A stretch of DNA of 25,662 nt, taken from the IMG/VR virus record IMGVR_UViG_3300030333_001198, positions 1-25,662 of that record. One strand, written 5' to 3'. Source of the stretch: a virus. Made by a program: the position numbers and the translations under genes. Shown here one piece after another: positions 1,977 through 24,128 of the stretch (position 1 is its first letter; every line of letters starts with the position of its first letter). The notes under the pieces were generated by a model, which was given only the letters and a program-made list of their open reading frames with translations, made no database searches and was not told the DNA's origin.

Positions 1977-1978
1977 TG

Positions 1979-3561: not shown

Positions 3562-3562
3562 T

Positions 3563-4264
3563 TTACACTGGTTGTTGATAGAACCATCCTGTTACTATGT
3601 ATTTAGTTCCTTTAAGCACTAGATTACCCTTATGAGTATGAGTAAATGCACCAGGAAATATACAAACTGTTCCTGTGGTAGGTTTAATCCTTCTCTTTTG
3701 ATAGAAAAACTCTGTCTCTCCTCCCTCAAAACCTTCATTGAGATATATTGTCCACACTAAATCTCTATTCTGTTCATTCCATGAACCATTCTCATGATGA
3801 AATACATGATAACCACCACCTTCAGGTGTCTTCTGCATCTTTGAAGTCCATGATGTAAGAGGTACTTTACTTAATGCAGAGTATTCAGTACAATAATGAT
3901 TCAAACATGCCTGTAAATATTGATTAACACGTGCATTCAACATACTATCCATATTGTCTAGCATGAGAGCATAGTCCTTTCTTCCTAATTGTTTGTCTTG
4001 AAACTGATCAGCACCTACCATTGCATTTGCTTCAGCAGCAAATGGATTTAATGGTTTAAGATCCTTCTCCATATTTCTTTGAACTGCACCCTCTTCCCAT
4101 CTCTCAAAGAAATGGATAAGATCATTACAGAATGCAGATGGTACAAAGCTTGGCCAAATAGCAATGAAATCATCAAACTCAGCCTTCTCACCCATCATAT
4201 TGACAGGTATAATAGGTGTGACCATCTCCATGTAGTTGGACGCACCTGTTCCAGTTATAGACAT
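3563..4264 (-). CDS. 2OG-Fe(II) oxygenase with H-x-E first ligands
   Basis: The 233-residue protein has the oxygenase jelly roll in its C-terminal half: G-G-Y-H-V-F-H156-H-E158, then W-T-I-Y-L-N-E-G-F-E-G-G-E-T-E-F (171-186), then T-G-T-V-C-I-F-P (197-204), T-H209-T-H211, and G-T-K221-Y-I-V-T-G-W-F. The usual H-x-D appears as H-x-E, and the 2OG arginine position appears to hold lysine. The overall order still fits the family well. The N-terminal half (1-140) is helical and unassigned, with an I-W-P-S-F-V-P-S-A-F-C stretch resembling the opening of P4H-like proteins. It lies seven bases downstream of the glycine-rich fibre gene and two bases before the chaperone-like gene. Confidence 0.82.
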   Translation of the reverse strand: MSITGTGASNYMEMVTPIIPVNMMGEKAEFDDFIAIWPSFVPSAFCNDLIHFFERWEEGAVQRNMEKDLKPLNPFAAEANAMVGADQFQDKQLGRKDYALMLDNMDSMLNARVNQYLQACLNHYCTEYSALSKVPLTSWTSKMQKTPEGGGYHVFHHENGSWNEQNRDLVWTIYLNEGFEGGETEFFYQKRRIKPTTGTVCIFPGAFTHTHKGNLVLKGTKYIVTGWFYQQPV

Positions 4265-4271
4265 AATTTAA

Positions 4272-6821
4272 TCAATAAGCTTTTATCAAATATTTAACCC
4301 TAAAGTATTTTAACACAAGAGGTACTGCTTGTCTAGGTACTATTGCAGGAGCAACACTTATTGACTCAGCACCAGTCATAGTCAATGTACCTTCATTCAT
4401 ACTAATACCAGCAGTATTAGGATCAACACTCATGTTATCCTGTGAGATAAAGTTAACAGTTTTACCATTATCATTAGCTTTACCATCATTCCACTTATGT
4501 ATACCAAAGACATTCTGGTTACCAGCAGGTCCATCTTCTCGATAAGCATCACTAGTACCACCACCAGAATAATCTGTGTTAGTAACATCACCAGCATTAC
4601 TAGGGAATGATCTGTTCTCACCCCATATAATTCTTACAAGTCCAGGTCCACCATCACCAGGATCAGATGCTACATCACTAGATGAGTGATGATAGTTTGC
4701 ACCACCTCCAGCACCATATCCTTGACCATCACCACCAAATGCATCATTATATATTGTACTACCACCAGTACATTCTGTTCTAGAATTCATTAGAACAGTA
4801 CCATTACTATTGTCTGTTATCTTCCAAGCAATACCAGCAGGGTTATCTGCCCATGTATCATAACCAGGAACAGAAACATTAGTTACCTGAAATGTTATAA
4901 TATGTGGTCCTTCTGTAAGACCTGTTAATGTAACAGATGTTGATGGTGTACTAGGTGTTGGTGTAGATACTGAATTAAATGATTGAGTCATTAATGTACT
5001 ACCATTAGGTGCTAACCAACTCATAATACCTTGATTATCACAAGCCATTTCTACAGTAACACTATTATATCCAGCAGCAGGTACATCTAACACAGCACCA
5101 CCTACTTGTGCTTGTCCTAGGTAAGGATCAACAGTACCCATAGCTTGAACAGCAGGGTATATTGCATAATCTAACATATGTTGTGTCCATACAGCAGCAC
5201 TACCAGATGATATATTACTAGCATTTACTGCGACCCAGTTCTTTGTACGTGCTTGTGGTGATGCTGTATTCTCACCATTCAAACCACCTGAGCCTGCCTG
5301 ACCTCCAGATACTACACTGTAAGTAGTAGTAACAGAGTTACCACCAATACCATCAGATCCAATTCCTAACTTACCTACACCACCGCCACCAGCACCACCA
5401 TTTACACCACCAGCAAGGTTGTAGTCACCACCAGCACCACCACCACCAGATCCAGATGGAGCATTTTTTGATGTTCCACCTCCACCGTTACCAGCATATC
5501 CAGCTGCACCACCTCCACCACCATATGTGGTAGAATCGCCTCCCATACCTCCACCACCACTAGTACCACCTTGCCATGTTGTTGAGTCAGCAAGTCCACC
5601 TAAATGAGATCCTGGTCTTCCTACACCACCACCTCCAGCAGCACATGTTGAGTAGTTATTAAAGTAAGATGTTCCTCCATTTCTTCCAGTACCTATTATT
5701 GAACCAGTATCACCTACACCACCTTTACCAACTTTTAAATTATACTGTGTTCCTGGTACAACAGTCATACCACTGATCCATGCTAAGGCTCCACCACCTC
5801 CACCGAGGTTACCTCCACCTCCACCAGCACCACCACCAATACAAAGTACTGATATTTCTGTTACTCCAGAGGGAACAATCCATGTATCATACTTATCAAC
5901 ACCTACAGTTGTAGTAAATTCTGCCTGACCCTGAGCACCAGTTGGTGTCTCAGCAGCATTTTCATGAGCAGCTGCTATATCATATGAATACATATCCTTC
6001 GGTGTATCCAATGATGCATCACTACCACTCTTAACTGGTCTCTCTAATGCTAACCAATGTGTATGAGGTGCTGCTGTACCTCTTTCTGGATCATAATCAA
6101 GAACAGCACCATAAACAGTTTCATATCCTTTCTGATTATCAAAGTTTGAAGCTGAACCAGATTCCATAGTTTGTCTCTGGTCATGTCCACTAGTAAGAAG
6201 TGTATGACTATGTGGTGGTGGACCTGATAAAGTTTTCTCTTCTAAAGGTCCAATCTGTAAAGTGGCTTGACCTGTTAATGTTCCAGTAATAAATGCTGTT
6301 ACACTATCATAACCACTGACTCTAGCACTACCAAAACTATACTCCTTTAACTGTCTTGCTCTAGATATATACCACTCACCACCTACATCTCCTACTTCCA
6401 TAGCAGCATCGTCAGGTGTTATTGAACCAGCTCCATCTATACCACCTGGTCCATTAATTCTTTTCATTCTTAGATCAGGTACTTTAAATGTACCTAAATC
6501 AGTACTTGCTGCTGTATGACCTGCTCTACCTGTCTTTGAACCATTCCAATTCTTTATATTTACATTCGCATCACCACCATACTTATTACCCAACACCTCA
6601 TATAATAATGGGAAATCAGATATATTTAATTCTTGTCCTTCACAATAAACATAGCCAGGATAATTATATGCTATCTTATCTTTATCAATAACATTTGCTT
6701 TACTATGATCATCTACATACACAGCAATAATCGATCCAATGGGAGCTCCCATATCTGCTGATAAGTCAGAGTAGTGGTGGTTATATAAACCCTGATCTCT
6801 TTTGTTAGCGAAAATAGGCAT
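4272..6821 (-). CDS. Tail-collar fibre protein with glycine-rich adhesin domain
   Basis: This 849-residue virion protein should act at the tail tip in host recognition. Residues about 25-120 form a tail-collar (short-fibre type) domain: G-A-P-I-G-S-I-I-A-V-Y, then Y-P-G-Y-V-Y-C-E-G-Q, then F-P-L-L-Y-E-V-L-G, then F-K-V-P-D-L-R. Two H-x-H motifs follow (H204-S-H206 and H253-T-H255). From 313 a Gly-rich domain begins (W-I-V-P-S-G-V-T-E-I-S-V-L, then runs of G). It is interrupted at about 525-690 by a beta-sandwich-like insert ending in P-A-G-I-A-W-K-I-T-D, and closes with G-G-P-G-L-V-R-I-I-W (724-733). The C-terminus ends Y-L-I-K-A-Y, like its two paralogues upstream. ATG overlaps the upstream TAA (TAATG). 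Confidence 0.85.
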   Translation of the reverse strand: MPIFANKRDQGLYNHHYSDLSADMGAPIGSIIAVYVDDHSKANVIDKDKIAYNYPGYVYCEGQELNISDFPLLYEVLGNKYGGDANVNIKNWNGSKTGRAGHTAASTDLGTFKVPDLRMKRINGPGGIDGAGSITPDDAAMEVGDVGGEWYISRARQLKEYSFGSARVSGYDSVTAFITGTLTGQATLQIGPLEEKTLSGPPPHSHTLLTSGHDQRQTMESGSASNFDNQKGYETVYGAVLDYDPERGTAAPHTHWLALERPVKSGSDASLDTPKDMYSYDIAAAHENAAETPTGAQGQAEFTTTVGVDKYDTWIVPSGVTEISVLCIGGGAGGGGGNLGGGGGALAWISGMTVVPGTQYNLKVGKGGVGDTGSIIGTGRNGGTSYFNNYSTCAAGGGGVGRPGSHLGGLADSTTWQGGTSGGGGMGGDSTTYGGGGGAAGYAGNGGGGTSKNAPSGSGGGGAGGDYNLAGGVNGGAGGGGVGKLGIGSDGIGGNSVTTTYSVVSGGQAGSGGLNGENTASPQARTKNWVAVNASNISSGSAAVWTQHMLDYAIYPAVQAMGTVDPYLGQAQVGGAVLDVPAAGYNSVTVEMACDNQGIMSWLAPNGSTLMTQSFNSVSTPTPSTPSTSVTLTGLTEGPHIITFQVTNVSVPGYDTWADNPAGIAWKITDNSNGTVLMNSRTECTGGSTIYNDAFGGDGQGYGAGGGANYHHSSSDVASDPGDGGPGLVRIIWGENRSFPSNAGDVTNTDYSGGGTSDAYREDGPAGNQNVFGIHKWNDGKANDNGKTVNFISQDNMSVDPNTAGISMNEGTLTMTGAESISVAPAIVPRQAVPLVLKYFRVKYLIKAY

Positions 6822-9620: not shown

Positions 9621-12600
9621 TTATATCTCCGCTAACCACCATCCTTGATATGTAGATGGTATCGTATTTGCTTCACTATCCTCAGATCCAGCAAAGACTA
9701 GACCAAATCCAGCATTACGTGTCTGAACAATAAGTTCACCACCAGCGTATGCACTACTTAGTCCACCAGCATTTGTTCCTGTAGCATCACCTTGAATTCT
9801 AACACCCAAAGGAGCACGAATGATTAATGATGCATCATAAGAAAGGTTGCCTCCAACCTCAATGAATCTAATCATATCACCAGTCTCTGCATCAGCAGGT
9901 AGTGTGAATACAGTATCAGCAGCAATGGTGATCATGTAGTTCTTACCACTCTCTAGTGTAGCAGTAGATGTAACATATGTCCAATGTCTACCACCGTTCT
10001 TGTTGTAGAATTTCTCAACACCAAATGCATCAATAGCAGCGTCTTGACGTATTCTATAGTTACGATTAGCATTTACACCTAAGTTAGTGATGTTCAATGC
10101 ATAATCTGTAACAGCAGGAGTTGCAGTAGATGTGCTAACAATGTTAACATGACCACCGTTGACTGTTAAATCACCATCACCTAATGCACTACCACTAACA
10201 CCAATTCTTGTATCACCAGTCTGTGCATCAATTTCAAACTTAGCAGTAGAAGCACCACCAAATTGAACTCCAGTTACATCACTGTATACTTTAAAGTCAT
10301 CATTGATTGATAACAGACCACCAATTAATGTGTTACCTGTAGCAGAATTAACATAGAATGAGTTTTCTGCAGAATCAACAGAACCTGCCTGACTATTGTT
10401 ATTAATTCTAAGGTTACCAGATAACCATTCTTCACCATTCTTATTGATGATTGCTTTAGGAGCAGCCTCAGTACCAACACCAACGATAGTTAACTTACCA
10501 TCGCTATCAACTGTTAGTCTTGTAGCAGGTAATGTCTCACCATTGACTATTCTAAACTGGTTATCAGTAGAGTTTGTATCAGCATTACCATAAAGGTTCA
10601 TCGTAAAGTCTTGATCACCAAGAACATTAGATGTAACACCACCATATACAGAGTCAATTACGAATCTAAGTGCATTAGTACCATCATTAACAATAAACTT
10701 CTCAGAGTTAGTATTGTTAACTGATACAATCTGTACAAATTCACCAGATGGGCAAGATGCAGATGGATTCAGTCTTAGATAATCGTTTTGATTGAACTGT
10801 CCACCAAACTCAGCAAGTGATAGTAATGTATCACTGAAGTTAAGAACAGCAGATCCAACTGTACCGCTAATTGGAACTGAAGCACCACCAGGATCAAGTG
10901 ATAACTCAAACCTTGTAACGCTATTACCAGTATCATTAACTGCTTTTACAACGAAGTAAGTTGCTGTAGTATTAATACCAACAATACTTCCAATATTAGT
11001 GAACTTAACTGCATCACCTGTTGCTAGTTCATTAATAGGAACTTCAAGTGAATTAGATACTGGATTGATAGCACTAATTGTAGGTGTAGTAGAGTTCTGT
11101 GGAACACGTCCAAGTAGGAATGTTGCACTTGGTGACTTCTCTAACTTACGAATAACAGTGTTATCATTATGAATTGCTACAGTTGTACAATCTGTACCTC
11201 TAGAAACCTTAACTCTTCTGTTATTCTTATCAGCACCAGGTGAGACAACCTCAACTAATTCTGTTCCGATAATAATAATATCACCAATATTAATACCTTC
11301 CACGTTATTAAGTGGTAGATACTCATAATCTACATCAGCAGAATTATTTGTCCATGTAGTAGTTGAACCACCAACAGCACCAGAAGTATCAATCTTTGTT
11401 TTATCTAATGTTAAAGCAACAGCAACACCTGGTGTACCAGTTACAGAAACCTTATCGGTTGTAGAAGCGGTTGTAGAAACTTGAACATTATTTCCACTTT
11501 GATTAATAATATAGTATATGTCGTTAGTATTAACACCTGTTAATCCACTTACATCAGTGAACTTAACTTGGTTACCATCAATGAAGTAGTTTTCTACTAA
11601 TGTTAGTGTACCATCTGAGTTATTAACACTGCTAACAGTCTCTGCACCATCAATATCATCAACAAACTTATAGAAGTCAACATTAAGATTAGTTAGAGAT
11701 CCAGTAGCATGAGCAACCTTAGATGTACCAAGTTTTGCTCTTTGAACTGTAACAGTACCACTATTGGATCCACCATGCATAGTGGTATCACCATAGATGT
11801 CTGCATCACCATTAACTTTTAAGGAGTTTCTAATAGTTGTTGAACCAGCAACACCACCAAAGTTTAATACAGATGCTCTTGATGCGAAGTTAACTTCAGA
11901 ACCATAACCAGCTCTTGTGAAGAGGTTAATAGTTGCAGAGTTAGACTGTAGATCACCACCGTTAACATCTAAGTCACCGTCAAGTATGGTCTGTGCATTC
12001 TTGATTGTAAATGTAGAGTTAGCAGTGTTACTAAACGCACCACCCATTGTGATGATTGACTTGTTAGTAGCAGCATCAGCAACAACACCAATGTTAACTG
12101 TCGAATCAATAGATGATGTGTGTACATTTAATGTTGTATCAGTAGAAGAAGTACCAATGTCTATTGTCTGAGCTGCTGTAGCATCATCACCAATCTTCAA
12201 AGTGGTTGCATCACCAACAAAATTGACTGTAGTTGCAGTAGTATTAAGAAGATTAAATGATGTAGCACCAGTGGTAATATCACCACCATCAACATTCAAA
12301 TCACCATCGATGTCTGCATTAGCAGTAGCACCAAATAAATGTAATGTTCCTTTAACGAACAAACTAGCATCTAGTTCAGCATTAGTTGCATTAATACCAA
12401 CTCTACCATCTAAAGTAGAAACTCTAAGTGTTGCTGCTGTTTGTGGAGCAGAACTATCACCACCAACTAAGAATGCATTAGCTAATAATGTCTCAACCTT
12501 GGATATAGTTGAGTTAGTAGAGTAACTATCAATATCTTTACCACTGATAAATGCATTACCAACAACATCTAAATTTGCTCTTGGTTTCTGCTGATCAAAG

Positions 12601-15600
12601 ACTACACCACCAGATGTATAGGTTAAGAATCCATGTTGATGTGAATCATGTGCAGTACGAGCAATAGTGTTAACACCCAACTTGTACTGACCAATAGAAT
12701 CAGTATCTGTTCTAAGTGCTTCAGCACCAATTACACCAGTCTCTTTCCAGTTCTCATCTGATCTTGAAAGAAGAGCAGTAGGTTGGTTAGCAGCATCCCA
12801 AGTATATGTTGCTGCTGGTAAAGCATTAGCACATATAAACTCAATGAAATCATCATCAGCACCAGACTGATCTGCTTTAGATACAATCCACTTACCATTA
12901 ATAGCAGTTTGATCAACAAATCCTGTGATACGAATAGTCGAACCAACCTTTAATTTAATACCACCAGATGTATTGGTTAATACACCACTCCACTTAATCT
13001 TAACTGTAGTACCACCATTAGTAGTAACATCTAAGATACTACTTTCAGGAATATCAGTATAGTAGTTTGCAAATATCCAACCAAGTGAACCACTGTTCTC
13101 AACCGATCCACCCTTATAAAGGATATCACCAGCTTGAGGATTAGCATCAGTAGCAGTACCACTATAGTATGATACAATCTGATTAGGATTATATGTTCCA
13201 GCCTGATCAGGTGTTCTATTATTTGGTAGTGCGTCTAACCTATTAAAGTTTGAACGGATACTATATGCTTGACCTGGATTGGATTGTGATCCACGACCTT
13301 TTACGTGTAAAATTGCCGAGGAAATTTTATTCTGACTAATGGTTATATCACCATCATTATTGTCTGCAAATGAAGTCCTAGACAAAGTATTATCTTCATC
13401 AAGACCATCAGTTCTAGGATTAGATCTGACTATTAATGATGGAACCTCAGTTGGTGGCTGAGTACTTATAATAACCTGATTGTTAAGGTTAGATATACCT
13501 TCAACAGTAATCTTATCCTTAAATGTAACAGGAGTATCAAATGATGTTATAAGTTGACCAATAGTATCTGTATCATCTTCAGATGAAACAAGTTGAGCTT
13601 TCTCTAGGAATGTTTCTTCACCAGTGATAGCATCAATCTTCTTGTTACCAATGTATAGGTCACCATTACTGTTAAGACCAGTGTAGAATACAATACCACC
13701 ATCCTCACGTTTTGCTTGTGAGTAGTAGTCTTGGAACTCAGATAGGATAACTTCCTGTCTTGCTGGTAGACCAGTTGAGTAGTTACCTGGACCAAAACCA
13801 AGGTATTCAAACGTATGGTTACCAGATCTAGCAATAGATGGTCTTCTTAGTTCAATGTATACCTTCTGATCATGAATAGATGTTGCATCACCAGCAATAC
13901 CAATCATTCTTTGCTCTGAACCAGCAGTAGCATTACCTGTTTGTGCTTCTATTGTATAGGTATTCTCCTTAAAGAATGGTGTCTCAGTAAGGTCAATAAT
14001 TGCTTCCTTGGTCATTGACCTCTTATAGTCATTGACCCAGACTAAACCATGTGTATAGTTGTCTGCGAAACTGTTAGCAGCAGGTGGATCAGTAATTAAT
14101 GTGTCCTTAGTACCATCGTTATCTGTAACCTGATACCATGTAGGATCGTTCTTATAGTCTAGTGGATATAGTGAGGAGATAGGCTGAGAGAACTTAAAGT
14201 TCTGGAAGTTCTGTCCTACACCAGCACCACGAGGCATTGGAGAAATGTTACCACGAACAGCAGTTAGATAGTAGATACCATCTTGCTGTCCAGCAACACG
14301 TTCCTGAATCTGTTCTGAATCAAAAATGTAGAATGTATCATCAATCTGTGGTACATCTTCTACAGCAATAATCTTAAACTGATTGCCTGTACTATCATCT
14401 AATGTATCACCAACTGTTAAGGTGAATACGTTAGAACCACCAACAACATAAAGGTTATTAGATTTACTATCTCTACCACCATTAACATCTGCTTGCTGTT
14501 TAGCATACACAGCACCTTGAGTGAATGTAGTTGTTGATAGAGGATCATATGTTGGTCTAGCACTTACATCCTTAAGAATAATATAGTGCTTACCACTTAC
14601 CTCGAAGTATGCATGTAGATAACCAAATCCACTACTACCACCACTCCACTGAACTATGTTAGCAGGACTAGATGATATCTTACTTGTAGCAAATGCACCA
14701 CCTTGAGGAGCATCAATCTCAACAGTATGGAATACTGTATTCTTAAGTGATGGTGCGTTAGTATCATCAACTCTATGATCAAATGCTGTTACCTGTAGTA
14801 ATTCTTGTGAACCAACAGTTACCTTTCTACCAGATCTAATACTAAATCTTAAATAGTTGTCTGTGTTAACAACACAAGGACTGCTATCAGGATCATAGAT
14901 GTACTTCTCTTGTAATGTACCAGCCTGTACTGCATTATTAAATTCAGTCTTAGTCATACCAATGCTTTCAGCACTGTTCTGTGACTGTGGGTTTCTAAAG
15001 ACAGCAGAAGCATTATGACCAACAGGTTCTAATGTAATGTTCTGTGGAACAAGATTACGCTTATCATCAGTACGTAACTTAAGAACAAAACCATTATTAG
15101 GTTTCCTTATTGAACCAGGGAATTGCTTAGACTGTACATAACGTAGACGATATATTCTATCATCTGCCTTACGATCATCCTTAGTACGAGTATAGTATGA
15201 ATCTGTTGTCTGTGTACGACCTGAACTACTACTATAATCTGTTATCTTAAGTCTTGTTAGTATGTTATCATCATTAACAGTCTCATCCTTAAGATTCAAA
15301 TACCACAAACCATCATTGATCTTAGGTATTCTACTTGCACTAACATCTACAAATGTAGGATCAAATTTAACTGGTGATGTACGCTTGTTAGCAAGTACAT
15401 ACCAGAACTGTGTTGGGTTGTTAGATAACTGAATCTCTGGTGACCCTAAGATTGCTGCACTAGCAGTCTCAAAGATCTTGAATGTATTCTCTGACTCATA
15501 TCTTACATAAAATTCTTGTACTGCAGAGATTTGTCCAGCACCACTACCAGCAAGTGTAGGTAATGTACCTGTGTTACCATCAGATCCAGAAGCTCTAAAG

Positions 15601-18600
15601 AATACCTTCTGAAGATCACCAGCATTTAGAGCACTGGTTGGCTTATCAAATACATGTGCTACATCTGTCTTGAGTAGTACACTACTTGATCCAGAGAATG
15701 TACACTTATACTCATGTAGATCGTAAGTAGTATCTAACGTAAAGTGTTGTACTAGAATCTCTACATCAGCATCCAAAGATTCTGTCTCTGGTGAGTAGAT
15801 GTAGATACCAGCAGCTGCTGCCTCTAATGACTCAGCAAGCATCAACTTAGTTTGATCACCACCATCAAATATACCACTATAAACATTAGAATCGTTATAA
15901 TTAAATGGTTGTGTGTTACGACCTGGAGCAATTACGAAGTAAGTTCTGTTAGGTTGGAATCCAAGTGGTAAACGAACGTCTCTCTCATCTGGAGTCTTAC
16001 CTGCTTTAGCACGAGCAACCAATCTGACTGGTGTTCCAGTTTCAAACTTATGTGGGTTAGTACCACCAGCATCTATGGTGAATAGAGTTGCACGTTGAGC
16101 AAACTGATCACTAGATGTTGCTGGATTTTCTCTAGCAACTACATTCTGAGAAGGTGATGATTTAGTTGTAGCAGCAAACTGTCCAGCATTTGTAGCATAT
16201 GCAGTAACACCGTTATTAACAGAAGTTACAAATGTATGTGGATAATTACCACCAGTCTTCATACCAAATGGTTTAGACTCTACAAATGTATGTGTATAAG
16301 CACCACCAGCACTCAAAGCACCAGCAGTTGCACTCACAAATGTGTGAGCATAGTTACCACCAGTTGTAATACTATCAGCAGTAGCACTGATAAAGTAATG
16401 TGTTGTTGTGTTAGTAGAAGGAGCAGATGCTAGAACATTAACTGTTACTGTTCCATCCTGTCTGCTCAATCCAAGAGCAGTTGCACCAGTGAATGCATGT
16501 GTAGATGTGTTTGTTGATGGTAGAGCTGGAAGAACCTGTACATCAAATGTATCTGTCTGTACATTAGAGATCTCTAACCAAGCACCAGATGCAGGGTCAT
16601 GTGCTCTAGGATATGTCTTAGCAGCAGTGTTACCATCAAGATCACATGTAAATGTGAGAGAGTTATCTGCTAACTTGATTCTGTTACCATTTTGGAATCC
16701 ATGTCCAACAATGGTTAGAGTCATTATACCTGTTACTGCATTATATACAGCATTTGATACTGTATGAGTAGTAACACCAACAGCAGTAATAGGAATTGCT
16801 GTATCAGATACAGGGTCAGATGAACGAGGATATGTATGCTGAGTTGCACGTGAGTCCTCATCACATTCAAATGTTAATGAATCATCAGCAATCTTAATAC
16901 CATCACCAACGTCTAGTGTGTGGTCACCAATCGCTAATACTAAGTTACCAGTGTTAGGATCATATGATGTACCAGTACCAGCAGTATGAGTTACTAGAGG
17001 TGAAGGTCCAACATGTAGTGTAATTGTATTTGCACCAACTGCCTTAATAGGAATTGCTGTGTTATGTACTGGATCAGAAGCACGTGGATATGTCTTCTGT
17101 GCAGTATTACCATCCATTGCACATGTGAAGGTCAATGAATCGGTAGCAAGTTTAACAGATTGACCTGCTTTGGTGATACTATTAGCAACACCAGAAGCAA
17201 ATGTGTGTGCAGTAATGTTAGTAGAAGGTACTGTTGCTAGTACCTGTACATCAAATGTATCAGCAGTTACAGCAAGAACTTCAATCTCTTTGTTAGCAAC
17301 AGGGTCAGTAGCACGTGGATATGCATGTGTTGTATTGTTACTATCTTCTAAACATGTGAAGCTAACAGCACCAGGTGCTATCTTAACTTGATCACCAATC
17401 ACAAGTCCATGACCTACATGTCTAACAGTCATGATACCTGTTGAAGGATCATATGTTGTACCAGCAGCAGGTGTGAACTTCTGTTCAGCAACTAAATTAT
17501 GAGATCCTATAGTTAGGGTCATATCACCTGTTACTGCATCATATACAGCAGCACTAGGTGTATAGGACACTAGAGGAGTTGTACCAACAATTGCCTGAAT
17601 CTTACCTGATTGCTTTTTAACACCGTTTGCAACGGCAGATACAAAGGTATGAGCAGATGTATCAGGAGATTGTCCTATGTTAATAGTAAATGTATTGCTA
17701 TCAGCAGCAGTAATTTCTAACCACTCACCACTAGCATCATCAGTTGCTCTTGGATATGCATGGTTAGTAGCATTACTATCCTTAGCACAACTAAATGTAA
17801 TTGATCCATCTTCTAGTAGTACACGATCACCAACTCTAGTGATACCATTAGTACCAGCAGATACAAATGTATGTGTAGACTTATCAGAAGAAACCCCAAT
17901 AGTAACTACGAATGTATTCTGTGTTACATCAGAGATTACTAAATCCTTACCTGAAGCAGGGTCAGTTGAACGTGGATAAGAATGTTCAGTAGCATTACTG
18001 TCCTTAAGACATGTAAATGTTAGAGAACTATCTGCTATCCTTATACTATCACCAGCATCAAATCCATGATTGTTAATAGTAATTTCCAACTTACCAGTGA
18101 AAGGATCATATCCAGCACTAGCAGCAGTATGCTGAGTACGTGCATGGAATCCATGACTGTTAATAGTAGATACTAAATCTCCAGTAGAAGGATTATATGT
18201 TGCATCTGTTATTGTATGACCTGTTGTAGGTACTGCTGATACAGCAATAGATGTATTAAACTTAGGATCAGAAGGTCTTGGGTAACTATGAACCGATCCA
18301 TAATTATCCATTTCACATCTAAAGGACAACGCATTGTTATCCAACTTAAATGTATCACCTACATTAAGATTATTGCTACCTATTGTTAATTCTAATACAC
18401 CAGTAGCACCATTATAAGATGCATCAGATACATTATATCCTACAATAGGTGTAGTACCAACATTAACCTTAACTGTATCTGTTGTAAGATCAGTAATACT
18501 TAGAAGTGTATTCTTAAATGCTGGATCTCCTACACGTGGGTATGTGTGGTTGGTAGAGTTGGAGTCCATACCACAAGTAAAGGTCAATGCATCTTGTGCA

Positions 18601-21600
18601 ATGCTTATCTTATTACTTGAAGACAATCCATGACCAGCCATTGTTAGAACTAAGTCACCAGTAGCAGCATCATATGTTGCATCAGATGGTGTGAATTGTC
18701 CTAACTGTTGTTGTTGACTACCAGCAGTATCAATACCATACTCAACTAACTGATAGAGAGTATCCATTGCTGAGATAACATCAGCACAGAATGTACCACC
18801 AACAGGATTAGGATCTGTAGTGATAGTAGTATCAACTGATTGTGTGTATGATGTAGTAACACCAGCTCTAGGAGTATATGTCTGGTTCTGTATTACCTTC
18901 TGTGATACAAGTTTAGCAACTCTAAATGCATAGATTGACTGCTCTTCTTCACCAGCAAGGTGAGCACCTGTAACATATAAGTTAGCAGCATCCCAAACCT
19001 TATTGTTTGCACCAAACTTGACGTTATATGCAACAGCTTCAACTATGTCTACAATATCATCAAAGCAGTTAACATTACCACCAGGAACAGTATGACTAGG
19101 ATACTCAATAAGCATATCCTTGACTGCTATATCAGCAATAAAGTTCTTATTAGCAAGTAATAAATCGTGTGCATCAGCATAACGATCACCTTCTGGGTTA
19201 ATACCTTGGTTGATAATAACCTTAATACCATCCATCAATGTAGTTACAGCAGAAGCAACTGAACTACATGCAGGATATACTGTATCCTGTGTAATATTTG
19301 CATCTACAGTACCAACTTCACTAGACCAGATTCCCTTACGGTCACCATTGTTATCTTCTAGTTTGAATAAAAGATTTGAACTAGCATTAGTTCCAGTAGC
19401 ATTTCTTGATGTACCTGTTGTTAGGTAACTTCTAGAACCAGAAACTACACTACCAAGTTCAATAGTTGTTGGGTTAACAATATTCCTAATGTAAGTGTTG
19501 CTAGGAATATTTGTTGTTACTAAACCACTAACACCTGTATTACCAACAACAGTTGAATACTCCTCAACCTTCATACCAATAGAAAGTCCTACTGTAGAAG
19601 GTACTGTTACTGTAGAAGATCCACTAGTTATTGAACATCCAGTCTGTAAGAAACTCCAGTTACGTGCAGCAGCAATAGCAAGGTCACGAGCATATTCAAA
19701 ACCTTCAATAGTCTCAAATCTCTCGTTATCAATATAGTTTAACTCACCAGCACTAAAGTATGATTCAGCAGCTTGAATAGTGTTGATGTTACCACCAAGA
19801 CGTAAGTCTGAGATAACAGCATCGAGAACCAATCCAACGTCTCTCTGACACTTGCTGATGATAATGTTCTTACTAAGAAGAGCTGGATACTTTGTAGTGA
19901 TATATCCATATGTTTCTTGTGCAATAAGATCCTTATTATCTTCAATTCTATTAGCAGCATCCTGATTCTTGTTATCTACAACTACTGTAGTAGGGTTAAG
20001 AATCTGTAAAGATGATGGGAATGTTTTAAAACCAGATGGTTCTAAAGTAGCATTATAGATCGCACCAGTTGGGGTAGTTTTACCAGCACCCTGACCATAG
20101 GGATCCAACTCAACAAATATCTTTTCTTTACTCTTAGAACCTAATCTAAATCCATCTAATGTAACAGCAGGACGGTTTAAAGGATCAGTAACACCTGTAC
20201 CACCATAATACAACTTAGTATTATTATTAGCAGAGTTAGATGCTTGAACATCAAATGTATAGTAATCTACTGTCTCTGTGTTAGCAGTAGACTCAACAAT
20301 CTTCTTAGGTGGAATAATTGCGTCAATGTAACCACCTTTATCCTGTGCAAAGGCATAACCTTTATGACCTACAGCATGAAGTGATGTGTTACCGAAGTTA
20401 CTGTTAGAGTTGGTGATACTCATATCACCACCACTTTCCATTAGGAAGTGATCAGCAAAACCAACAGCGAAGATGCTAACACACTGAATGAATGCATCAT
20501 TCGTTGCTTTTATGTGGGCGTTTCTCCAGTCATCCTTCCAATATGCATCACCCTTAGTGTGGTAAGGTACTGTTGCAAATGCATCAGAAAGAGATGCTTG
20601 GTTCCAAGTGTTTGTAAACTTATCGTATCTAATGAATGCTCTATCGTCTTTCTGTAGAGATACACCAGTATACTGAGCACAGACCATAGACTTGAAGCCT
20701 GTTGCCTTGCTACCATCTGCTAATAGACCACAGATACCCCATGTTGACCTGATAGACAGGTTGAACATGTATGGAGAAGCAGATTGAACTGAGTCAACCT
20801 CTGCCTGTACATAAGCACCTGAATTAAGACCGTTAGATGCACTATAAGTTTGATTATTCTGAAGACCTAAAGATGCTACAGTACCAGGTAATTGAAAGCT
20901 AAACCTTCTACGATTAGTAGAATCAATACTAGTAACACTAAAAGTACCATTTAATGCATCATCTAATCCATTATTCTGTACAGCAAAGAACTGGTCTTTA
21001 ATGTAACCATGAGCAATCTTAGTTGTTACATTAACACTAACAGTTCCAACAGGTGATGAATCAACAACCTGAATACTTTCAATAGATCTTAAGTCAGATA
21101 AAGGACCAACAATACGGTTCTCAGAAACATTAGCACCGAACTCATTCTGATCATCAATAGTAGGTTGATATTGAGCAAATGCCTTAGCAACCTTAACGTA
21201 ATATAGATCTAATTCTGGTTTCTCTGCATATTGGAATACAGTAATCTTGTGGTGAGAATACTCAGGTATAGCAAGGTTTGTGTTATCACCACTACGGTAA
21301 TAAACCTTACCAACACCAGCATTAGCGTCATATAATGGAGATTTTGTAGTGATATCTCCATCTTTAATGGTAAACTGCCAGATATAAGCACCACCAGTTA
21401 CATTAAAGATTGATGTTCTTGTTTGCTCTTTATCAGCAGGATCAGGAACATATAAAGGACGTATAATAGTTCTACGAAGATCATAACCAATTAGAGAACA
21501 ACCACGAGGGACTATGCAACCACCTTTAGAATCGTTAAACTTGTGAAGGACGTTATCAGGATTGGAAAGATCCACAACCGAAGAATCTGTCCAAGCACTA

Positions 21601-21902
21601 TTAAATTGATCATAACTGAAAACTGGTGTTCCAGAATCAGTTGCTAAACCAGGTCTATTATCAATATAATGGTCACCAGGCATAAGCATGATGGTGAACT
21701 CATCAAATCGATCATTATCAATTCCAGGAGCATAAGAATATCTTGCTACCTCGATAAATGCCCTCTGAATCGTTACAAATGGGCGATTAGGTGAATTACC
21801 TCTATTGTCTAGTTCATCAGATGCATTGAAATCATCTGGTGAGACATACAAATATCTACCAGTTTTACTGGAGATTAAGTTATCTAATCTGGTTAATGGC
21901 AT
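9621..21902 (-). CDS. Giant virion structural / tail-fibre-like protein, 4093 aa
   Basis: This is a single uninterrupted frame of 4093 codons, nearly half the window. Giant virion proteins of this type are known from T4-like cyanophages and are thought to form baseplate or fibre structures. The N-terminus (1-200) looks like a right-handed beta-helix-type domain (P-F-V-T-I-Q-R-A-F and a later C-S-L-I-G-Y-D-L-R-R). Two related helical modules lie near 680-755 and 945-1010. Residues about 1060-1900 hold tandem beta repeats with F-x-C...D...Y-P-R-x-x-D, eight copies. A further segment near 3150-3350 is rich in short T/N/G repeats (T-T-T-V-N-F-V, L-K-I-G-D-D). The C-terminus (about 3900-4093) is non-repetitive and ends Q-G-W-W-L-A-E-I. 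A late promoter precedes it. ATG at 21902 has AAGGA unusually close. Confidence 0.9.
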   Translation of the reverse strand: MPLTRLDNLISSKTGRYLYVSPDDFNASDELDNRGNSPNRPFVTIQRAFIEVARYSYAPGIDNDRFDEFTIMLMPGDHYIDNRPGLATDSGTPVFSYDQFNSAWTDSSVVDLSNPDNVLHKFNDSKGGCIVPRGCSLIGYDLRRTIIRPLYVPDPADKEQTRTSIFNVTGGAYIWQFTIKDGDITTKSPLYDANAGVGKVYYRSGDNTNLAIPEYSHHKITVFQYAEKPELDLYYVKVAKAFAQYQPTIDDQNEFGANVSENRIVGPLSDLRSIESIQVVDSSPVGTVSVNVTTKIAHGYIKDQFFAVQNNGLDDALNGTFSVTSIDSTNRRRFSFQLPGTVASLGLQNNQTYSASNGLNSGAYVQAEVDSVQSASPYMFNLSIRSTWGICGLLADGSKATGFKSMVCAQYTGVSLQKDDRAFIRYDKFTNTWNQASLSDAFATVPYHTKGDAYWKDDWRNAHIKATNDAFIQCVSIFAVGFADHFLMESGGDMSITNSNSNFGNTSLHAVGHKGYAFAQDKGGYIDAIIPPKKIVESTANTETVDYYTFDVQASNSANNNTKLYYGGTGVTDPLNRPAVTLDGFRLGSKSKEKIFVELDPYGQGAGKTTPTGAIYNATLEPSGFKTFPSSLQILNPTTVVVDNKNQDAANRIEDNKDLIAQETYGYITTKYPALLSKNIIISKCQRDVGLVLDAVISDLRLGGNINTIQAAESYFSAGELNYIDNERFETIEGFEYARDLAIAAARNWSFLQTGCSITSGSSTVTVPSTVGLSIGMKVEEYSTVVGNTGVSGLVTTNIPSNTYIRNIVNPTTIELGSVVSGSRSYLTTGTSRNATGTNASSNLLFKLEDNNGDRKGIWSSEVGTVDANITQDTVYPACSSVASAVTTLMDGIKVIINQGINPEGDRYADAHDLLLANKNFIADIAVKDMLIEYPSHTVPGGNVNCFDDIVDIVEAVAYNVKFGANNKVWDAANLYVTGAHLAGEEEQSIYAFRVAKLVSQKVIQNQTYTPRAGVTTSYTQSVDTTITTDPNPVGGTFCADVISAMDTLYQLVEYGIDTAGSQQQQLGQFTPSDATYDAATGDLVLTMAGHGLSSSNKISIAQDALTFTCGMDSNSTNHTYPRVGDPAFKNTLLSITDLTTDTVKVNVGTTPIVGYNVSDASYNGATGVLELTIGSNNLNVGDTFKLDNNALSFRCEMDNYGSVHSYPRPSDPKFNTSIAVSAVPTTGHTITDATYNPSTGDLVSTINSHGFHARTQHTAASAGYDPFTGKLEITINNHGFDAGDSIRIADSSLTFTCLKDSNATEHSYPRSTDPASGKDLVISDVTQNTFVVTIGVSSDKSTHTFVSAGTNGITRVGDRVLLEDGSITFSCAKDSNATNHAYPRATDDASGEWLEITAADSNTFTINIGQSPDTSAHTFVSAVANGVKKQSGKIQAIVGTTPLVSYTPSAAVYDAVTGDMTLTIGSHNLVAEQKFTPAAGTTYDPSTGIMTVRHVGHGLVIGDQVKIAPGAVSFTCLEDSNNTTHAYPRATDPVANKEIEVLAVTADTFDVQVLATVPSTNITAHTFASGVANSITKAGQSVKLATDSLTFTCAMDGNTAQKTYPRASDPVHNTAIPIKAVGANTITLHVGPSPLVTHTAGTGTSYDPNTGNLVLAIGDHTLDVGDGIKIADDSLTFECDEDSRATQHTYPRSSDPVSDTAIPITAVGVTTHTVSNAVYNAVTGIMTLTIVGHGFQNGNRIKLADNSLTFTCDLDGNTAAKTYPRAHDPASGAWLEISNVQTDTFDVQVLPALPSTNTSTHAFTGATALGLSRQDGTVTVNVLASAPSTNTTTHYFISATADSITTGGNYAHTFVSATAGALSAGGAYTHTFVESKPFGMKTGGNYPHTFVTSVNNGVTAYATNAGQFAATTKSSPSQNVVARENPATSSDQFAQRATLFTIDAGGTNPHKFETGTPVRLVARAKAGKTPDERDVRLPLGFQPNRTYFVIAPGRNTQPFNYNDSNVYSGIFDGGDQTKLMLAESLEAAAAGIYIYSPETESLDADVEILVQHFTLDTTYDLHEYKCTFSGSSSVLLKTDVAHVFDKPTSALNAGDLQKVFFRASGSDGNTGTLPTLAGSGAGQISAVQEFYVRYESENTFKIFETASAAILGSPEIQLSNNPTQFWYVLANKRTSPVKFDPTFVDVSASRIPKINDGLWYLNLKDETVNDDNILTRLKITDYSSSSGRTQTTDSYYTRTKDDRKADDRIYRLRYVQSKQFPGSIRKPNNGFVLKLRTDDKRNLVPQNITLEPVGHNASAVFRNPQSQNSAESIGMTKTEFNNAVQAGTLQEKYIYDPDSSPCVVNTDNYLRFSIRSGRKVTVGSQELLQVTAFDHRVDDTNAPSLKNTVFHTVEIDAPQGGAFATSKISSSPANIVQWSGGSSGFGYLHAYFEVSGKHYIILKDVSARPTYDPLSTTTFTQGAVYAKQQADVNGGRDSKSNNLYVVGGSNVFTLTVGDTLDDSTGNQFKIIAVEDVPQIDDTFYIFDSEQIQERVAGQQDGIYYLTAVRGNISPMPRGAGVGQNFQNFKFSQPISSLYPLDYKNDPTWYQVTDNDGTKDTLITDPPAANSFADNYTHGLVWVNDYKRSMTKEAIIDLTETPFFKENTYTIEAQTGNATAGSEQRMIGIAGDATSIHDQKVYIELRRPSIARSGNHTFEYLGFGPGNYSTGLPARQEVILSEFQDYYSQAKREDGGIVFYTGLNSNGDLYIGNKKIDAITGEETFLEKAQLVSSEDDTDTIGQLITSFDTPVTFKDKITVEGISNLNNQVIISTQPPTEVPSLIVRSNPRTDGLDEDNTLSRTSFADNNDGDITISQNKISSAILHVKGRGSQSNPGQAYSIRSNFNRLDALPNNRTPDQAGTYNPNQIVSYYSGTATDANPQAGDILYKGGSVENSGSLGWIFANYYTDIPESSILDVTTNGGTTVKIKWSGVLTNTSGGIKLKVGSTIRITGFVDQTAINGKWIVSKADQSGADDDFIEFICANALPAATYTWDAANQPTALLSRSDENWKETGVIGAEALRTDTDSIGQYKLGVNTIARTAHDSHQHGFLTYTSGGVVFDQQKPRANLDVVGNAFISGKDIDSYSTNSTISKVETLLANAFLVGGDSSAPQTAATLRVSTLDGRVGINATNAELDASLFVKGTLHLFGATANADIDGDLNVDGGDITTGATSFNLLNTTATTVNFVGDATTLKIGDDATAAQTIDIGTSSTDTTLNVHTSSIDSTVNIGVVADAATNKSIITMGGAFSNTANSTFTIKNAQTILDGDLDVNGGDLQSNSATINLFTRAGYGSEVNFASRASVLNFGGVAGSTTIRNSLKVNGDADIYGDTTMHGGSNSGTVTVQRAKLGTSKVAHATGSLTNLNVDFYKFVDDIDGAETVSSVNNSDGTLTLVENYFIDGNQVKFTDVSGLTGVNTNDIYYIINQSGNNVQVSTTASTTDKVSVTGTPGVAVALTLDKTKIDTSGAVGGSTTTWTNNSADVDYEYLPLNNVEGINIGDIIIIGTELVEVVSPGADKNNRRVKVSRGTDCTTVAIHNDNTVIRKLEKSPSATFLLGRVPQNSTTPTISAINPVSNSLEVPINELATGDAVKFTNIGSIVGINTTATYFVVKAVNDTGNSVTRFELSLDPGGASVPISGTVGSAVLNFSDTLLSLAEFGGQFNQNDYLRLNPSASCPSGEFVQIVSVNNTNSEKFIVNDGTNALRFVIDSVYGGVTSNVLGDQDFTMNLYGNADTNSTDNQFRIVNGETLPATRLTVDSDGKLTIVGVGTEAAPKAIINKNGEEWLSGNLRINNNSQAGSVDSAENSFYVNSATGNTLIGGLLSINDDFKVYSDVTGVQFGGASTAKFEIDAQTGDTRIGVSGSALGDGDLTVNGGHVNIVSTSTATPAVTDYALNITNLGVNANRNYRIRQDAAIDAFGVEKFYNKNGGRHWTYVTSTATLESGKNYMITIAADTVFTLPADAETGDMIRFIEVGGNLSYDASLIIRAPLGVRIQGDATGTNAGGLSSAYAGGELIVQTRNAGFGLVFAGSEDSEANTIPSTYQGWWLAEI
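16190..18725 (-). repeat. Tandem protein repeats inside the giant structural gene
   Basis: Translated repeats of roughly 75-110 residues recur here. Each has a (V/S)-x-Y-(D/N)-x-x-T-G-x-(L/M) opening, a G-H-G-(L/F) or similar turn, a (L/I)-(T/S)-F-x-C strand, D-(S/G)-N, then (H/K)-x-Y-P-R-x-x-D. I count eight Y-P-R units, with HTYPRVGDP, HSYPRPSDP, HSYPRSTDP, HAYPRATDD, HAYPRATDP, KTYPRASDP, HTYPRSSDP and KTYPRAHDP as their markers. One unit (D-A-T-Y-N-P-S-T-G) is cut short. At the downstream end the pattern decays into short H-T-F-V-S-A-T units (about 16190-16400). The DNA copies have diverged, so the array is old rather than a recent slippage product. Confidence 0.85.
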
Positions 21903-21943: not shown

Positions 21944-22519
21944 TTATTTATCACAGTTCTTTTCTGCTTCCCCATTGCTATTTAGATGTGGCGTAAAGAA
22001 ATTAATGTTAATTACTGACTTAATTCTCATATCAGTTTGACTAACACCTCGATGTTTAAGATTTGATGGAAATTGGACGTATCTATTTGCTCTACATCCA
22101 ACCTTAGATCCATCTTCAAATTCGGTATAACCATTGCATGTATTGAGATAATATATGCCTGTAGTCATATAATCACACGAACCTTGTTCATCGCTATAAT
22201 CGGTATGATAATCACTTATATATGCTTCCTTAAATAAAGGTTGCATATTTGCCTTTATCCTATACAACCCAATATATTCTATTCTACTTAAAATAGGAAG
22301 CATAAGATTAAAGTGATCAGATTTTTTGTGTATCAATCCACCATAATGATTCTCCGATCTAAAGAATGGATGAACAAACTGAAAATTCTCTAATGAATCA
22401 GAATTACCACCAACCTTATACTCATTATAATGCCAAGGGAATTCTTGAAAGAATAAAGTATCAAATAATACCTTATACTCTGCCTTTGTTAAAAAGTCAT
22501 CAGTCAACCTTATAGTCAT
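21944..22519 (-). CDS. 2OG-Fe(II) oxygenase-like protein
   Basis: The 191-residue product shows the oxygenase pattern. Y-R-I-K-A-N-M (86-92) is followed by Y-H105-T-D107, then M-T-T-G-I-Y-Y-L-N-T-C-N-G-Y-T-E-F (118-134), R-Y-V-Q-F-P-S-N-L-K-H156-R-G and D-M-R165-I-K-S-V-I-N-I. H105, D107 and H156 are the predicted iron ligands and R165 the 2OG contact. Substrate is unknown. Similar small proteins are often found beside structural genes in cyanophages. The start ATG overlaps the upstream TGA as ATGA, so it is translationally coupled to the other oxygenase-like gene. The late promoter of the giant gene sits in its last codons. Confidence 0.83.
   Translation of the reverse strand: MTIRLTDDFLTKAEYKVLFDTLFFQEFPWHYNEYKVGGNSDSLENFQFVHPFFRSENHYGGLIHKKSDHFNLMLPILSRIEYIGLYRIKANMQPLFKEAYISDYHTDYSDEQGSCDYMTTGIYYLNTCNGYTEFEDGSKVGCRANRYVQFPSNLKHRGVSQTDMRIKSVININFFTPHLNSNGEAEKNCDK
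21945..21952 (-). promoter_or_regulatory. T4-type late promoter before the giant structural gene
   Basis: The minus strand reads GATAAATA, matching the NATAAATA late-promoter element of T4-like cyanophages. It overlaps the last codons and stop of the upstream oxygenase gene and lies 42 bases before the giant gene's ATG. It is the only good match I found in front of a gene in this window, and it stands at the head of the structural block. Confidence 0.65.
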
Positions 22520-23127
22520 TTTTTGCCACGAGATTTTTTCTTGGATCTGAAGAATGCAGTATCACGATAGGTAAACGCTATGGTTTTTCTTTCCAACCAT
22601 GCAAAATTATTAGGAGCAGATCCTCTATGTTTATAGTTAGCTTGGAATAAAACACCACGATTAGGTCTGTATGGTGTCATATAATGCTCATCATTCTCAC
22701 CAACACAAACAAAATCTCCACCCCACTGAGATTCCCAACCTTGGCAAACCATAACAATCATGGTGTACATATGTTCATCTCCATCAAAATGGAATGTACC
22801 CTCTTGTCCTGGAAATTGTATGTTAGAATTAATTCTCTCTAAGTATACTTGATGTTTTACTTGTTTTTGTACAGCATATTTTATTTTCTCTCCAATATTA
22901 ATGAGACATAGATTATCTCCTAGTTCATCCTCAGTTGGTTTATGTATAGCACCCCATTTAGGATAAGGGACATGCCCCATCCTATCTTTAATCTTAGTAC
23001 CATCACACTTATACGACCAATGCTCTTTCTTATAAAACATCCAAGGGTTATATTCTCCCCTGAACTCATCCATCAGAGCAAAGTAGTCATCACGTGATAG
23101 TATATTATCGTAGATCCATAGTTTCAT
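22516..23127 (-). CDS. 2OG-Fe(II) oxygenase-like protein
   Basis: I choose the ATG at 23127, giving 203 residues (M-K-L-W-I-Y-D-N). The frame stays open to 23193, but that extension would run into the 3' part of the tmRNA and is not oxygenase-like; an ATG at 23154 is a second alternative. In the 203-residue form, L-E-R-I-N-S-N-I-Q-F leads to F-H113-F-D115-G-D. Then come G-G-D-F-V-C-V-G (136-143), R-P-N-R-G-V-L-F (154-161), Y-K-H167-R-G and R180-K-T-I-A-F. These give the H-x-D...H...R set. The C-terminus is strongly basic (K-K-K-S-R-G-K-K), which could favour contact with nucleic acid or acidic surfaces. It overlaps the next gene by ATGA. Confidence 0.8.
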   Translation of the reverse strand: MKLWIYDNILSRDDYFALMDEFRGEYNPWMFYKKEHWSYKCDGTKIKDRMGHVPYPKWGAIHKPTEDELGDNLCLINIGEKIKYAVQKQVKHQVYLERINSNIQFPGQEGTFHFDGDEHMYTMIVMVCQGWESQWGGDFVCVGENDEHYMTPYRPNRGVLFQANYKHRGSAPNNFAWLERKTIAFTYRDTAFFRSKKKSRGKK

Positions 23128-23135
23128 ATTATTAA

Positions 23136-23152
23136 GGGGGAATTCCACCCCC
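23136..23152 (-). terminator. G5/C5 hairpin between tmRNA and oxygenase gene
   Basis: On the minus strand five G, a seven-base loop and five C are followed by TTAATAAT. It lies between the tmRNA and the ATG at 23127. It could end the tmRNA transcript or sit in the 5' leader of the downstream gene. The U-run is poor, so termination is doubtful. Confidence 0.35.
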
Positions 23153-23164
23153 ATATAGTCATTT

Positions 23165-23415
23165 GGGTAACAAGGCTGACTTAACCCCGTCATTCCTGAT
23201 TATACAGTCGCTAAAGAGCGAGCACCCTCTAGGTGAGGGATGCGAACGAATCCTACGATGTTATTCGCAGGAGGTGTATCTGTTTTTGCAGATGTGGTTT
23301 GCTTATCCAAGCAGGTTTCAGTCCCGATCCTTATACCCTGTCGAAGCCATGGCATCCCCTCGAATGGAGATGACGGGAATCGAACCCGTGTCCAGAATGT
23401 AGGTGTCGTCACCTA
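23165..23415 (-). ncRNA. ssrA: Permuted two-piece tmRNA (ssrA)
   Basis: The minus strand holds tmRNA parts in permuted order. First is the acceptor piece: T arm at 23389-23373 (ACGGG, loop TTCGATT, CCCGT), then CATCTCC plus discriminator A ending at 23365, with no encoded CCA. After only five bases (TTCGA) the coding piece starts at 23359 with GGGGATG, which pairs with CATCTCC with one G-U. It continues through the D-arm-like CTTCGACAGGG. Bases 23340-23329 pair, with wobbles and mismatches, with 23404-23393 before the T arm, as expected for helix 2. A tag frame starts at GCG 23268 and ends at TAA 23202-23200. This permuted layout is the one known in marine alpha-cyanobacteria. It would rescue stalled ribosomes during infection. 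The outer ends and cleavage sites are approximate. Confidence 0.85.
23200..23268 (-). other. tmRNA proteolysis/rescue tag reading frame, 22 codons
   Basis: From GCG at 23268 the frame reads A-N-N-I-V-G-F-V-R, then I-P-H-L-E-G-A-R-S-L-A-T-V, then TAA. The first nine residues fit the cyanobacterial tag pattern A-N-(N/K)-I-V-x-F-x-R. The rest is longer than known cyanobacterial tags (about 14-16 residues, ending in AA) and ends in L-A-T-V. Two hairpins fall within it (CCCTC/GAGGG and TCGCT/AGCGA), probably parts of the tmRNA fold near the stop. Confidence 0.75.
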
Positions 23416-23429
23416 TCCTCAAAAGAGGA
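23416..23429 (-). other. Hairpin spacer between tRNA-Thr and tmRNA
   Basis: The minus strand reads TCCTC, TTTT, GAGGA, a perfect five-pair stem with a four-base loop directly after the tRNA 3' end. A second stem (TAGGTG/CACCTA, 23400-23415) follows at once. They are likely processing structures of a shared tRNA-tmRNA precursor, or the 5' part of the acceptor piece. Confidence 0.45.
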
Positions 23430-23501
23430 TGCCATCAGAGGGATTTGAACCCCCGACCTTGGCTTTACAAAAGCCCTGCACTACCACTGTGCTATGATGG
23501 C
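23430..23501 (-). tRNA. tRNA-Thr (anticodon UGU)
   Basis: Seventy-two bases fold as a cloverleaf. The acceptor GCCATCA pairs perfectly with TGATGGC, with discriminator A and no encoded CCA. The D stem is GCAC/GTGC. The anticodon loop TTTGTAA gives UGU, with stem GGGCT/AGCCA having one closing mismatch. The T stem is GGGGG/CCCTC with loop TTCAAAT. It lies directly after the 28-aa ORF and just before the tmRNA acceptor piece. Phage tRNA-Thr(UGU) would read ACA codons, suiting the AT-rich, Thr-rich structural genes. Confidence 0.92.
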
Positions 23502-23591: not shown

Positions 23592-24128
23592 TTAACTTGG
23601 TTGTATTATATCATGACGGCGATAAAATTTCAAGTGCCCCCACTTAGCACCCCAGACCTGTTGATCTGTCTCTAAGTCGAAACCCTTATCGAGAACCCAA
23701 TAAGAATCATCAGTCAATTCAATCTCATTAAGAAGGTATGTCTCTTTACCCTTGTACATTACTGTACAGTCTGAGCTTGCTGTCTTGCCGTGATAGACAA
23801 CACCAGACCTTACGAATTTAATATCACACCCCAGTCTCCTCTGCAAAGGAGCTTCTCTTAGTTTATTTAGATTTGAACACAAAACATATTGTCTAGGATC
23901 ATCTATGGAATAATTCTGAACAATATAACCGTCATCAACTGTAATAACTTTCAAGATAAACTGTCTGTATGGATCTTTAGGACAATAATTATAACACTGC
24001 TCACCATAAAATATCCCATCGCTTAACCTAACGTGGGATATATTAATATGAGCATAACGACTGGGATCCTTCATTGCTTGATGCTGGTTACTAAAGTGAC
24101 CAACTAAGCAATCTTCAAAGCTTTTCAT
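23592..24128 (-). CDS. cpeT: CpeT/CpcT-family bilin lyase homologue
   Basis: The 178-residue product matches the CpeT/CpcT family, which attaches or chaperones bilins for phycobiliproteins in cyanobacteria. Visible family marks are F-Y-G-E-Q-C-Y-N-Y (40-48), P-Y-R-Q-F-I-L-K-V (53-61), G-C-D-I-K-F (100-105), Y-L-L-N-E-I-E-L (131-138), W-V-L-D-K-G-F-D (144-151) and V-W-G-A-K-W-G-H-L-K-F (158-168). cpeT is a recurrent auxiliary metabolic gene of cyanophages; a phage homologue is known to bind phycoerythrobilin. It would act on the host light-harvesting antenna during infection. I choose ATG at 24128 over the TTG at 24143 of the longer frame. It overlaps the upstream 92-aa gene by 14 bases and is followed by the 28-aa peptide. 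Confidence 0.88.
   Translation of the reverse strand: MKSFEDCLVGHFSNQHQAMKDPSRYAHINISHVRLSDGIFYGEQCYNYCPKDPYRQFILKVITVDDGYIVQNYSIDDPRQYVLCSNLNKLREAPLQRRLGCDIKFVRSGVVYHGKTASSDCTVMYKGKETYLLNEIELTDDSYWVLDKGFDLETDQQVWGAKWGHLKFYRRHDIIQPS

Follow-up and report, generated by a model that had tools for sequence, protein, structure and literature searches.

Among the closest described systems is the alpha-cyanobacterial two-piece tmRNA of Prochlorococcus and marine Synechococcus (RF01851). The window, which is the whole stretch of 25,662 bases analyzed here, is a virus record resembling cyanophages. Its tmRNA gene shares with the alpha-cyanobacterial system the permuted order, the G3-U70 acceptor stem, the ANNIVxFxR core of the tag and the spacing between a hairpin and the resume codon. 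Unlike the host genes, it lies on a separate branch and has a proposed 29-residue tag ending in ATV, whereas the host tags have 16 residues and end in AA in 144 of 145 rows. Also close are the two-piece tmRNAs of the cyanophages S-SSM7, S-SSM6a, S-CAM1, S-CAM3, Sf-FS3 and AG-345-P14, which share with the window the lineage, a 7-codon extension ahead of ANNIV and a similar make-up of the tag. However, the tags of these phages end in VTA, VAA or ATA, while that of the window ends in ATV and includes an extra stem-loop.

In the accessible part of one report, 53 marine phage two-piece tmRNAs are counted and AG-345-P14 is named (PMC9004378); the tmRNA of AG-345-P14 was also found in the present analysis. 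A 2025 tmRNA database, as described in part of its article, holds 79 unique phage sequences (PMC11915505). Neither the head extension nor the valine ends of cyanophage tags are discussed in the available portions of the literature searched, which did not extend to supplements or to the phage entries of the tmRNA database.

Two further systems can be compared within what the accessible text of their reports gives. Mycobacteria have additional, phage-derived tmRNAs whose tag differs, so that, as in the present case, a phage-type tmRNA supplies a second tag beside that of the host; those are related to mycobacteriophage Nappy (PMC9569102). The engineered E. coli ssrA variants AAV and ASV resemble the window in having a small change at the terminal alanines, for which slower degradation is expected, but they were designed and assayed in E. 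coli, whereas the end in the window is natural and known from sequence (PMC9097571).

Sequence Data

From 364 loci (designated by L numbers), 22 were dropped, as ARAGORN gave no tmRNA for them. Pattern matching supplied the phage set (70, 110 and 11 stretches), which has a bias toward whatever the patterns match; the Prochlorococcus host set likewise came from a tag pattern. Among host-family genomes, 99 were over the cut-off, of which 30 gave loci, and 37 more were added. The row counts exclude one-piece calls, second host copies, the duplicate of the window (L001) and repeats identical in both gene and tag, and the window itself stands outside the 95-row counts of phage tag ends. Three loci with edge-shifted coordinates (L069, L141 and L212) were kept in the tallies of tag ends and of position −4 and were removed from the trees and from the pN/pS, hairpin and acceptor-stem analyses. 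The careful tree additionally leaves out six long-branch rows; it comprises 93 rows (88 phage or window and 5 host) and excludes the tag columns. The hosts were thinned to these 5 in the careful tree and to 83 (68 plus 15 of 76) in a quick tree.

Structure and Genomic Setting of the tmRNA Gene

On the minus strand, positions 23446-23137 match RF01851 with a score of 134.8 bits (E = 7.4e-37; gathering score 70), and RF04321 also matches the gene with 72.5 bits. ARAGORN calls a tmRNA* at 23109-23454 on the same strand, on which all the parts described below lie. Because both Rfam and ARAGORN detect a tmRNA, a chance reading frame is ruled out, the RF01851 score being enough to exclude it.

The gene is of the permuted two-piece, cyanobacterial type. 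The 3' strand of the acceptor stem, CATCTCC (23366-23372), followed by the discriminator A at 23365, is placed ahead of the 5' strand, GGGGATG (23353-23359), with the five-base spacer TTCGA (23360-23364) between them; excision of this spacer would free the CCA end. All seven pairs of the stem are formed, including G3 (23357) with U70 (23368), the pair that specifies alanine identity. A G-U pair occurs at 3-70 in 69 of the 75 phage rows that could be measured (18 were unmeasured), and the G-C pair in the remaining 6 probably reflects mislocated stems. The five-base spacer is the commonest length in the measured rows (41/75). The T-arm contains GTTCGATTC, the hairpin GCTTGGATAAGC (23301-23312) precedes the proposed resume codon by 11 bases, a spacing shared by relatives and hosts, and the gene ends in the 3' stem-loop GGGGGTGGAATTCCCCC (23136-23152). 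The score is thus above the RF01851 cut-off, the acceptor stem with G3-U70 and the T-arm are in place, and the tag frame runs from an alanine codon to a stop. As read from the sequence, the features for trans-translation are all present in the window tmRNA.

A 25-kb-sized query from the window matched 43 phage records, which by name are 29 Synechococcus, 8 Prochlorococcus, 5 "Cyanophage" and 1 "Marine". A tRNA-Thr (TGT) called by ARAGORN at 23430-23501 (minus) lies directly upstream of the tmRNA gene, and the two would probably be carried on one transcript. Upstream of the tRNA, a promoter-like site TTGAAA-17-TATAAT (23605-23633, minus; 11/12) has TG ahead of the second hexamer; it is weak evidence because the stretch has 3 such sites against 2.7 expected by chance. 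Elsewhere in the window, one open frame of 4093 residues (9621-21902, minus) is tail-fiber-like by phage matches, and several frames at 157-4264 and 21944-23193 resemble 2OG-Fe(II) oxygenases, these names being taken from neighbors in S-SSM7 and Sf-FS3. The listed open frame at 22516-23193 (minus) begins within the tmRNA gene, and the ATG after 23137 is its likelier start.

In a phage collection, the S-CAM1-type gene matches 16 of 50,697 records, and a tmRNA is annotated under none of the 16 matches. Most of these records have a probably false hypothetical protein over the tmRNA gene, and in S-CRM01 and S-CBWM1 the gene is present without any annotation beneath the match. The hypothetical proteins overlying the tmRNA in S-SSM7 (SSSM7_025; L004, 3004-3222), S-CAM1 (L005, 2974-3099) and S-CAM3 (L006, 2959-3099) are probably annotation artifacts. 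L005 also contains a wcaG RNA motif (5566-5662, 83.5 bits), at a distance of some 2.3 kb from the S-CAM1 tmRNA.

Phage tmRNA Lineage

In the careful tree, the phage and host rows are split by one branch with 100/100 support, and the window belongs to a starred group (95/98) made up of 16 phage rows. The quick tree with 83 hosts shows the same split (100). As placed by these gene trees, the window tmRNA belongs to a cyanophage lineage separate from that of the hosts. Contamination of the phage set by host sequences is rejected, as the phage and host rows stand on opposite sides of one branch. The last residue of the tag changed at least 6 times on the careful tree and at least 5 times on the quick tree.

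Second tmRNA matches in three host genomes were considered as possible phage donors. Those of L324 (3988-4282, 168.5 bits) and L325 (1030-1266, 94.3 bits) look decayed. In L324, some 3 kb separate this copy from the intact gene, an arrangement that could result from an integrated element. The third host genome (L326, 966-1112) has a second permuted tmRNA-like sequence scoring 61.6 bits to RF04321. In a scan of viral contigs for one-piece tmRNAs, all 120 of the 120 tags read end in AA; these look like host tmRNAs at prophage ends and are therefore uninformative on lytic phages.

Starting Point of the Tag

A sequence-only reading had placed the tag at 23268-23200 (minus), opening at ANNIV. The letters of that reading, ANNIVGFVR, IPHLEGARSLATV and the stop TAA, are all present, but the opening itself is not borne out. 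ARAGORN starts the tag at GCA 23289, reading AKTDTPP-ANNIV and onward for 29 residues, AKTDTPPANNIVGFVRIPHLEGARSLATV, in a frame that occupies 23200-23289 with its stop. The resume codon is very probably this GCA (23289-23287), seven codons ahead of ANNIV, and the tag is then probably 7 residues longer than first read.

In E. coli, A86, the base at −4, is the main determinant of the frame and almost fully conserved, according to the accessible part of PMC2481249. Of the 95 phage rows, 94 have an A at −4 of the outer codon (23293 in the window), and of the 145 host rows, 144 have it at −4 of their resume codon; the two exceptions are probably L212 and L141, whose coordinates are shifted by the edge. 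The distance from the upstream hairpin to the outer codon is 11-12 nt, equal to the host spacing. Phage relatives lacking the extension read ANKIV or ANNIV straight from the same outer codon position, as in L242, which is otherwise S-CAM1-like. The first tag codon is alanine in 76 of 76 rows, spelled GCA, GCT or GCC. The extension measures 0, 18 or 21 bases, so that the reading frame is preserved, and it never contains a stop. Two points count against the outer start: the seven codons of the extension show mild protein-level constraint, with a pN/pS of 0.69 in frame compared with 1.28 and 1.56 out of frame, and a covarying hairpin of five pairs lies over the outer codon. Some relatives read ANNIDTA-ANNIV, which looks like a doubled tag head.

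If the inner GCG at 23268 were instead the resume codon, the tag would be the 22 residues of ANNIVGFVRIPHLEGARSLATV and the 21 bases upstream would merely be an added RNA hairpin. The upstream segment does form a covarying hairpin, the host Synechococcus tag also begins GCG AAC AAC, and the Rfam alignment places ANNIV at the host tag start. This alternative is nevertheless improbable: an A is found at −4 of the inner GCG in just 1 of 79 extended phage rows, the unextended relatives begin at the outer codon, the bases ahead of the GCG are buried within an 8-bp stem, and the length of the extension is always a multiple of three, free of stops. RNA folding is no arbiter between the two codons because both sit in hairpins. 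The hairpin across the outer codon, ATCTG-CAAAAA-CAGAT (23278-23293), has five covarying pairs with compensatory forms in relatives, and 87.6% of cells are paired over 37 sequences, compared with 23-44% when the pairing is slid. That across the inner GCG and ANNIV, TCCTGCGA-ATAACA-TCGTAGGA (23251-23272), is likewise paired in relatives, in 92.7% of cells over 43 distinct sequences, compared with 14-62.5% when slid. Tryptic peptides predicted from the S-SSM7 or Sf-FS3 tags are SSDTAANNIVAFSR and TSDVAANNIVAFSR, of which SSDTAANNIVAFSR would span the junction of the extension and ANNIV in S-SSM7.

Hairpins and Constraint in the Tag

By RNA folding, the tag codons fold as successive hairpins. In the ANNIV stem of the window, a C-G pair takes the place of G-C, giving Pro at codon 7 and Gly at codon 13, and this compensatory swap is unique to the window. 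As the two sides of one stem swap, Pro 7 and Gly 13 are best read as changes at the RNA level. The 13-residue tail includes an additional stem-loop, and the tails of relatives read -IAELATV, -IPYAAARTLATV and -IPTANARQLATV; in the window, the tag end with its stop (23200-23241) forms this extra stem-loop and then the shorter one common to relatives. That the extra tag length represents hairpin sequence held in frame is well supported by the comparison with relatives. The tag grows and shrinks in frame, as its length changed at least 16 times on the tree. The long tag ends of L015, L004 and L031 read RTREFARTDELVTA, which resembles a repetition of the RTRELATA unit found in shorter tags; duplication may have lengthened the tag at both of its ends.

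The constraint differs along the tag. The ANNIVxFxR core has a pN/pS of 0.057 in frame and 3.9-5.5 out of frame, which indicates strong constraint at the protein level. The last four codons are far less constrained, with a value of 0.66 in frame, against which one of the wrong frames gives 0.39. RNA pairing in the last hairpin may account for the penultimate Thr.

Tag Ends in Phages and Hosts

The window tag ends in Thr-Val, with RSLATV followed by the stop at 23200, and thus does not have the C-terminal Ala-Ala of an ssrA-type ClpXP tag. In the 95 distinct phage rows, the ends are VAA (28), ATA (21), VTA (15), VAV (15), ATV (10) and SLV (3), with a single row each for VPA, ALA and VVA. Among the 145 host rows, 142 end in VAA and one each in IAA, GAA and VLA. 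An AA end is thus found in 28 of the phage rows and in 144 of the host rows, and a Val end (VAV, ATV or SLV) in 28 of the phage rows and in none of the host rows. The terminal Val codons in the phage rows are GTT, GTC and GTA. A Val end is also absent from the one-piece tmRNA tags at 30 loci of other cyanobacteria, where 27 end in AA and 3 in VA. Among cultured phages outside the set, the tag of S-CRM01 ends in VAAL and that of S-CBWM1 in SCA. The tag of mycobacteriophage Bxz1 ends in ALV.

The cyanobacterial core and the absence of a short AA end, which had been noticed in the window from the letters alone, are confirmed; they recur across cyanophage tmRNAs and are not an accident of one contig. 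The description of the end as foreign is not sustained, as the end belongs to the same cyanophage lineage and the nearest relatives end alike. Shorter AA-ended tags, whose occurrence in homologous phage tmRNAs would have spoken against an unusual end, do exist in S-CAM1 and S-CAM3 (both ending STVAA), but most of the nearest relatives end in LATV.

Proposed Function of the Phage tmRNA

The phage-encoded, circularly permuted tmRNA of alpha-cyanobacterial type would work with the alanyl-tRNA synthetase, EF-Tu, SmpB and ribosomes of the host and would free ribosomes stalled during infection, the 29-residue tag being added after the alanine carried by the tmRNA. The ends -ATV, -VAV, -SLV, -ATA and -VTA, which evolved more than once among phages and do not occur in the sampled hosts, would weaken the product as a ClpXP substrate. 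In E. coli, altering the last or next-to-last alanine raises the KM of ClpXP with little effect on Vmax, as stated in the accessible part of PMC7652416, and the endings LVA, AAV and ASV are degraded at different rates, with less instability for AAV and ASV than for LAA and LVA, as stated in that of PMC9097571. A weaker degron rather than a stable tag is therefore to be expected. Rescue in the infected cell would then be separated in part from the rapid breakdown of the tagged protein, and the conserved ANNIVxFxR core would retain some other recognition. The suggestion, made from the window alone, that ribosomes are released without proteolysis of the tagged protein thus stays plausible as weakened proteolysis, and its stronger form of no proteolysis is not the best guess. 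A working phage tmRNA with a cyanobacterial core and a ClpXP signal that is probably weaker yet not absent is, in our estimation, about evenly poised between right and wrong. Counting against the weaker degron are the 28 of 95 phage rows that end in AA and the last four codons, where frame constraint is not clear. Any benefit to the phage would be a further step. We propose only tentatively, as something short of probable, that cyanophages have re-specified the host rescue tag by repeated loss of Ala-Ala, often to Val, with the core kept and the head doubled, so that ribosomes are freed and the products are degraded slowly or via a recognizer that reads the core.

The main rival explanation accepts a functional phage tmRNA and gives its tag end no selected meaning, only ribosome release being needed while the end drifts or follows the pairing in the last hairpin. 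This possibility is a serious one, though it too falls short of probable. It agrees with the folding of the tag end in hairpins, with the lack of a clearly favored frame in the last four codons and with a lambda-P22 hybrid phage that, in the accessible part of PMC2481249, requires ribosome release and not destruction of the tagged chain. A drifting end sits less well with a terminal residue that is almost wholly Ala or Val over 95 rows, with Val in three spellings, and with the tightly held core (pN/pS 0.057). The tag could also act at full strength if the cyanobacterial ClpX takes ATV, VAV and ATA like VAA, leaving the fate of the product unchanged. AAV and ASV still serve as degradation tags in E. 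coli (part of PMC9097571), and some phages of the lineage retain VAA; however, a change at either terminal alanine raises KM in E. coli (part of PMC7652416) and AA is retained in 144 of 145 host rows, which makes an unchanged fate unlikely. The idea that the gene is a relic, derived from a host tmRNA gene and now in decay, could draw on the score of 134.8 bits, compared with at least 276.8 for the best match per host genome over the cut-off, and on the decayed copies in L324 and L325, but with the acceptor stem, G3-U70, T-loop, frame and stop intact, the core constrained, a compensatory swap unique to the window and the gene maintained across many phages, it is hardly credible.

To our knowledge, no recognizer of the ANNIVxFxR core has been identified in cyanobacteria; the conservation of this core in the phage tags may mark it as a recognition element. 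A lineage that retains the rescue RNA with a repeatedly altered proteolysis signal would provide natural variants that separate the recycling of ribosomes from the destruction of proteins, which bears on why phages carry tmRNA genes.
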